Shown: piece after piece, positions 38,854-39,522 of the stretch | How positions within the stretch are numbered: position 1 is the stretch's first letter | Layout of the letters: every line of letters begins with the position of its first letter | Source: an uncultured Succinivibrionaceae bacterium | Lineage (GTDB): Bacteria > Pseudomonadota > Gammaproteobacteria > Enterobacterales > Succinivibrionaceae | Length of the DNA: 64,000 bases | Assembly: GCA_944389865.1 (NCBI GenBank) | Contig: CALXNX010000003.1 | Span: 1 to 64,000, forward strand | Direction of reading: 5' to 3' | Position numbers and translations under genes: made by a program | The notes under the pieces: model-generated | The model's input: the letters and a program-made list of their open reading frames with translations, nothing else | What the model was told of the DNA's origin: nothing | Database searches by the model: none

Positions 38854-39043
38854 AACATCCCTAAGGAAATTCAAACAAACAACCGGCTAATTTTAGCAAA
38901 AATTAAAGCCCGATCACACTCTGAAAAAATGCTGCATCCATGGCGCTGAAATTCAAGCGTATTTTATGCGTGACTTTAAAGGCGCTCTCAGCTATAATCA
39001 GCCCGTTTTTTATTTTTGTTTCGGCAGCATCATTTTAACTAAC

Positions 39044-39264
39044 GCCGCTTACATCCCCTTGCGTAAGCTGGGGGATGTAAGCGGCTGGTAAAGCGCATTT
39101 TGCTAATGTAAAATACGCTGAAAGAACTCAGGAAAGAGCTTTGTACTCCTACCTGATGGGGGCATTGTGGACATGCCCGTAAGCTCCCCGTAATGGGGAG
39201 CTTACTAAAAGCAGGGATACGACCCTGCGAAACCTCGCACGTAAGTGCGTTAGGTAGTTCATAG
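39044..39264 (+). ncRNA. Hairpin array resembling an IS200/IS605 end plus omega-RNA scaffold, inside the rpsU leader
   Basis: Five inverted repeats in 211 nt. (A) GCCGCTTACATCCCC (39044-39058) with GGGGATGTAAGCGGC (39071-39085), a perfect 15-bp stem. (B) AGCGCATTTT (39092-39101) with AAAATACGCT (39110-39119), one mismatch. (C) GTAAGCTCCCC (39179-39189) with GGGGAGCTTAC (39195-39205), 11 bp. (D) GCAGGG (39211-39216) with CCCTGC (39223-39228). (E) CGCAC (39236-39240) with GTGCG (39245-39249), loop GTAA. Hairpins C-E overlap a tnpB-tail-like frame, as in omega RNA. No T-run follows any stem, so these are not terminators. It may be an active structured leader, an exapted guide-RNA scaffold or decaying debris. 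Confidence 0.45.
39112..39264 (+). pseudogene. Possible 3' relic of a tnpB-like gene
   Basis: One frame reads NTLKELRKELCTPT, an in-frame TGA (39154-39156), then WGHCGHARKLPVMGSLL, KAGIRPCETSHV and SALGSS before TAG 39262-39264. Two reading-frame pieces in the same phase separated by one stop, overlapping hairpins C-E and ending at ...GTAGTTCATAG, resemble the tail of IS200/IS605 TnpB genes. No zinc ribbon or RuvC motif remains, so the family call rests on this tail only. Confidence 0.35.

Positions 39265-39522
<258 letters not shown>

Follow-up and report, generated by a model that had tools for sequence, protein, structure and literature searches.

Structured insert in the rpsU leader

The window (the whole 64,000-nucleotide stretch of DNA analysed here, from an uncultured Succinivibrionaceae bacterium) carries on its + strand rpsU, the gene for ribosomal protein S21 (39307..39519, 71 aa), which was present in 60/60 genomes searched. 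The upstream promoter noted in a preliminary description of this DNA was found as a sigma-70-type sequence, GTGACT-17-TATAAT (38970..38998, + strand), and similar promoter sequences lie upstream of rpsU in close relatives. Downstream of this promoter, the rpsU 5′ leader is longer by 224 nt of structured sequence. The rpsU leaders of genomes from the same genus and the same family were searched for the array, and none has it; they have a short hairpin only, which in two genomes of the same genus (G001 and G002) occupies the insertion place (GGCAGCATCACTGTACA..GACGCTGC). A predicted insert-free version of the window site likewise folds into one hairpin. Because the array was absent from relatives, and was not conserved upstream of rpsU as a cis-regulatory leader would be, it was rejected as a normal rpsU leader; among the genomes compared it is a lineage-specific insertion, in line with the insertion proposed in the preliminary description. 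The earlier remark that no stem is followed by a T-run holds on the + strand, where the array has no terminator-like site, and intrinsic terminators were rejected for want of such a run.

The insert was delimited as a 224-nt unit, C...GTAGTTCAT (39039..39262, + strand), directly behind the pentanucleotide TTTAA (39034..39038, + strand), its target, which would double as the TAM of a guide; the limits first given, 39044-39264, located the array and are corrected to these. The stretch folds at -126.1 kcal/mol, compared with -84.2 ± 5.1 kcal/mol for shuffled sequence (z = -8.2). All parts are on the + strand. The left-end (LE) subterminal palindrome (39044..39085), common to the LE of tnpA/tnpB elements, has a 15-bp stem (39044-39058/39071-39085). 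It is followed by a variable linker (39088..39119) containing a hairpin (39092-39119) and a -10-like box that reads TAAAAT here and TATAAT or TACAAT in other copies; copy L009 has no full promoter consensus inside the unit, and an internal promoter is unconfirmed. The remaining 143 nt (39120..39262) form an omega-RNA scaffold homologous to a tnpB 3′ end plus right end (RE). This scaffold begins with two stacked helices, TCAGG/CCTGA and GAGC/ACTC (39128..39156; last pair mismatched here), with two-sided changes in 6/9 pairs, and a stem GGGCAT/ATGCCC with the invariant loop core GTGGAC (39160..39178; helices 3-4 of the covariation count), laid out as in the ISDra2 omega-RNA structure. There follow an 11-bp hairpin whose sequence varies while its stem is kept (39179..39205; stem 39179-39189/39195-39205), a 6-bp hairpin in which every pair covaries (39211..39228; 39211-39216/39223-39228), and the RE hairpin (39232..39255; 5-bp stem 39236-39240/39245-39249) immediately before the terminal AGTTCAT. 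Four further pairs could form a pseudoknot between GGAC (39169-39172) and GTTC (39257-39260), beside the guide. The five inverted repeats originally listed, with stems of 15, 10, 11, 6, and 5 bp, are thus all present, the 10-bp one being the linker hairpin, but that inventory was incomplete, having missed the two conserved hairpins at 39128-39156 and 39160-39178.

In make-up, the unit is that of a whole non-autonomous IS200/IS605-type element, here an omega-RNA-bearing palindrome-associated transposable element (PATE). Units of the family are ~220-245 nt long, too short for a transposase gene; their near-terminal palindromes are related to IS605-type ones; and they sit behind a fixed short target on their 5′ side, without target duplication or terminal inverted repeats. 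The ends C...GTAGTTCAT do not form inverted repeats, and target duplication is absent, for which reasons a MITE proper was rejected. Rfam, scanned at the gathering threshold and at relaxed ones, gave no meaningful match.

Copies, insertion target, and distribution

A search with 39030-39275 recovered a second full copy in the same genome (C10:1682-1910, 81%), together with two partial matches on contig C46, 1.65 kb apart, to query positions 5-55 (84%) and 180-234 (78%). A 141-position covariance model of the core was then run over 57 genomes of Succinivibrionaceae and gave matches in 13 of them and none in the remaining 44. Counts, which include tnpB-linked ends (e.g., 2/4 in G000), were highest in G001 (42), G004 (37), G046 (25), G025 (19), G016 (15), G005 (14), and G042 (10), followed by G030 and G044 (7 each), G040 (5), G000 (4), G037 (2), and G015 (1). 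The array, initially taken for a lone broken relic, is instead one of many copies in a mobile family whose structure has been kept by compensatory changes. An exact-core scan of IMG/VR and a blastn search of plasmids returned no match.

Nearly all model matches are full copies that follow TTTAAC and differ in their downstream sequences. Among 45 copies with both flanks, TTTAAC precedes 44 and TTTATC the other, TTTA being invariant, and the flanks to the left of the target and to the right of GTAGTTCAT are random sequence. One copy (G005:C13) interrupts a gene, and joining TTTAA to ATCTTAC restores a frame, ...AVPEFKSYWMD..., that aligns gap-free to the uninterrupted paralogue ...DIPQFRSYWME.... 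From this empty site and the copy flanks it follows that the target is TTTAA, that the element starts at C, and that the window element spans 39039-39262. Right flanks downstream of the RE differ between copies, as is required of a guide, and their use as such is putative; in the window, the presumed guide segment is AGATGCCGCTGCATGGTTAT, 16-20 nt of rpsU leader (39263..39282, + strand). No TTTAA-flanked target of the window guide AGATGCCGCTGCATGG was found elsewhere in its own genome at ≤3 mismatches.

Several further arrangements were observed. Terminal-only elements of ~50 nt have the LE hairpin fused straight to GTAGTTCAT and contain no omega-RNA; they comprise L266 (G000:C10:2692-2741), four near-identical copies in G001 (L267, L271, L273, L275), and L268, L272, L274, and L276-L282 in G004. 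Omega-bearing forms stood to terminal-only ones as 42 to 4 in G001, 37 to 10 in G004, 25 to 0 in G046, and 10 to 0 in G042. Within the 25 G046 matches, L197-L200 make up a separate omega-bearing family with a ~185-nt scaffold nearer to a tnpB tail, which suggests that omega-bearing elements arose more than once. At L031:905-1194 (G016:C9), a younger unit lies at TTTTAA directly behind the LE of an older truncated unit, a nested insertion. L079 and L088, from two different genera, have the same right flank (>120 nt from ACGAAACCATAACG) and different left flanks; the unit may have been transferred together with adjoining DNA, or the assemblies may be cross-contaminated. Apparent 122-nt omega variants in G001 were rejected as a subfamily, being contig ends cut inside identical repeats.

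RNA scaffold and candidate protein partners

Alignment matched the last 143 nt of the unit to the tnpB 3′ ends and RE of tnpB elements, so the overlap with a tnpB 3′ end proposed earlier is borne out. The frame across the last three hairpins, likewise described as a broken tnpB tail, reads GGIVDMPV...AGIRPCET in the window; the corresponding stretch of TnpB tails reads G(F/V/L)VD(K/M/R)PV...AGIRSCET. An alignment of 31 full-length copies contained compensatory changes in 17/54 predicted pairs. When a fixed structure of 45 pairs was counted over 23 sequences (stand-alone units, two hybrids from G030, and tnpB ends), two-sided changes were found in 24/45 pairs; 93.2% of cells were paired, a percentage that is biased over that of slid versions by derivation of the structure from the window sequence, the two-sided changes being the stronger point. 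The covariation score was 0.392, compared with 0.199 for shuffled and ≤0.082 for slid structures. The stems thus covary across related genomes, a check that the preliminary description had itself put forward, and a scaffold fold kept through compensatory changes and shared with tnpB ends agrees with the omega-RNA nature suggested there. Pairing of the pseudoknot is possible in 22-23 of the 23 sequences and nearly invariant, so that covariation is uninformative for it; a guide-proximal pseudoknot is compatible with these sequences, not proven by them.

Among 14 representative copies (<93% identity), identity was 85% in the omega core (39122-39178), 82% in the LE, 86% in the RE, and 59% in the linker. 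Since the core lies outside both end palindromes, its conservation is not obviously due to transposase recognition alone. The window copy has 18 substitutions relative to the consensus and 1 broken pair where 7.4 were expected (P = 0.0003), while the pairs of L014, L031, and L102 decay at the neutral rate, which is what old insertions would be expected to show. This pattern points to an RNA structure maintained in an active lineage; it is not proof of function at rpsU, and the fold of the window copy may have been kept in its active ancestor rather than at the present site.

Both ends of the window unit match the LE and RE of an IS605-type element on contig C46 of the same genome, in keeping with the IS200/IS605 origin suggested at the outset. 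The C46 element has a TTTAACTAATGCCGCG... left end, a degraded minus-strand Y1 TnpA, and a 444-aa TnpB ending in ...GCGGTAGTTCAT that scored above cut-off for Pfam OrfB_IS605 and Cas12f1-like_TNB. This TnpB retains the conserved acidic residues of DLGVDN, REESYTS, and ADLN, and acidic positions that we take, by motif, to be those of the RuvC triad are kept both in it and in its relatives in G016:C12, G025:C15, and G030:C223. A phmmer search of the C46 TnpB against PDB gave no match. The intact TnpAs of the genome belong to another group (38-41% identity), and with the cognate TnpA degraded, the window copy is probably stationary now; mobility of the element in its own genome is doubtful.

Two loci in G030 (L030:3998-5708 on C223, with LE visible, and L121 on C206) are hybrids in which tnpB, with its stop codon in GGTAGTTAA, is followed by a second omega-RNA, of the stand-alone type, and then by the RE. 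From their sequences, these hybrids offer the best indirect sign that the stand-alone RNA type may work with the C46 TnpB clade. No TnpB above the family cut-off was found in G001 (42 matches), and in G005 (14 matches) there was likewise no TnpB above that cut-off, no TNB-domain match, and no Y1 TnpA match; both are draft assemblies (89 and 95% complete) from which multi-copy elements are easily lost, and because metagenome assemblies break at identical repeats such absence is weak evidence.

The left edge of the window, named earlier as a possible supplier of TnpB, was rejected as a source: the sequence there belongs to the end of a different multi-copy repeat, the window contains no TnpB, and the matching TnpB is the one on C46. 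Positions 1-77 of the window, at the contig start, lie inside this other repeat, which has an IS200/IS605-type end palindrome (AATTCCTCCCCCGC..GGGGGTATCC) and ~20 further copies (89-100% identical) in the same genome, with a similar number in G003; many of the copies lie at contig ends.

Competing readings and comparison with known systems

In sum, similarity to tnpB 3′ ends and IS ends, related copies in the genome, and absence of the array from relatives' rpsU leaders were all found. The array very probably represents one copy of an IS200/IS605 element that is non-autonomous, having kept LE, RE, and a stand-alone omega-RNA but lost tnpA and the tnpB frame, with use by TnpB and TnpA predicted in trans. 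The computed basis for this consists of membership in a family, exact insertion after TTTAA, a covarying structure common to tnpB 3′ ends, varying downstream sequence, and absence from the rpsU leaders of relatives. A less favoured but still plausible account, in our view a minority one, is that of a passive PATE: TnpA would need the end palindromes only, and the omega-RNA part would hitch-hike from a parental tnpB end and be used by no TnpB. The terminal-only ~50-nt forms in G001, G004, and others fit this account, as do the copy-rich G001 and G005 without a recognisable matching intact TnpB and the few copies (L014, L031, L102) that decay at the neutral rate. Against it, conservation of the omega core matches that of the ends, stems are kept through two-sided changes across families, omega-bearing forms outnumber terminal-only ones, and autonomous-type elements bear the same omega-RNA type behind tnpB.

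It is unlikely that the array is no more than the dead remains of one truncated IS605, with a structure due to chance or to its hairpin ends only. The window copy does stand 16-19% from its nearest relatives, with no near-identical sister in its own genome, as such debris might; yet it belongs to a multi-copy family with sharp boundaries and has far fewer broken pairs than its substitutions predict, and for the family this reading is largely contradicted by the copies aligned, the copy numbers, and the broken-pair count. More improbable still is a regulatory leader in which the structured insert controls rpsU by attenuation or translation control. With a good promoter upstream and the rpsU start downstream, the insert would be transcribed, but rpsU leaders of the same genus and family have the short hairpin in place of the array, the + strand offers no terminator-like site, and other copies are at unrelated places. 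The insert may have a secondary effect on rpsU, though its sequence was not shaped by that effect.

Under the favoured reading, that of a non-autonomous element served in trans, a Y1 TnpA supplied from elsewhere would peel and paste the unit as single-stranded DNA. RNA at the window locus would come from read-through from the rpsU promoter, a C46-type TnpB would bind the element RNA in trans, and the flanking 16-20 nt would serve as its guide. After excision, the RNA-loaded TnpB could cut TTTAA plus guide at the emptied site, and repair of the break from an occupied copy would help to bring the element back; this course of events has been put forward for full IS605 elements (PMC10278001, PMC11870625). 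With terminal-only forms present in several copies, the omega-RNA is not strictly needed for spread.

We regard as evenly balanced the further proposal of a mobile element with a guide RNA as its sole product, spread by a borrowed transposase and retained by a borrowed nuclease, which would give genomes with few TnpB genes dozens of self-written guides, a natural multi-guide collection built up through transposition. In the earlier view, PATEs were leftovers of end palindromes and omega-RNAs by-products of tnpB. Omega-bearing PATE families make testable whether TnpB can serve elements that lack its gene, and whether such elements can exploit it; if so, an omega-RNA alone would be a selfish asset, and TnpB-bearing genomes would hold many guides. 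The omega-RNAs of PATEs also offer natural compact scaffolds without coding constraint.

Stand-alone trans-acting omega-RNAs, from guide loci without a nuclease gene, have been reported for IscB loci and may have been noted for PATEs too, and PATEs have been discussed together with TnpB/IscB elements; the same idea may already exist for other bacteria. Within the family, an IS605-type element encoding TnpA and TnpB (G025:C15:8834-10648) resembles the window unit in LE, RE, left TTTAA, and 3′ omega-RNA, whereas the window unit encodes no protein. The omega-RNA (reRNA) of ISDra2 TnpB has a 116-nt scaffold overlapping the tnpB 3′ end and RE, and its pseudoknot pairs positions -5U to -3C with the loop (-105 to -103) of a stem that has its 3′ strand at -91 to -86 (PMC10097598). 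The window scaffold has an ISDra2-like layout, in that -6 to -3 (GTTC) can pair with the loop GGAC and the stem 3′ strand lies at -90 to -85, and -6G, -5U, -3C, and -2A at the scaffold end are common to both. Unlike that of ISDra2, the window omega-RNA is encoded without tnpB, its TAM would be TTTAA rather than TTGAT, and the hairpins between the pseudoknot-loop stem and the last stem differ.

As described in the pertinent parts of PMC3119063, Haloquadratum PATEs are non-coding, multi-copy, and bounded by near-terminal palindromes related to IS605-type elements, and the corresponding part of PMC7290912 presents a single PATE-like sequence in Halanaerobium composed of LE, the last 58 nt of tnpB, and RE. 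These and the window unit alike lack terminal inverted repeats, target duplication, and a transposase gene. A guide RNA is not reported in those parts for either PATE, in contrast to the complete covarying omega-RNA scaffold of the window family, which also differs from the PATEs described there in reaching ~40 copies per genome and tnpB-bearing elements with the same omega-RNA type. Set against the literature on IscB and PATEs, what distinguishes the family from known PATEs, though it may already be known elsewhere, is the combination of a complete covarying omega-RNA in high-copy families, omega-bearing forms that outnumber terminal-only ones, and hybrid tnpB elements.
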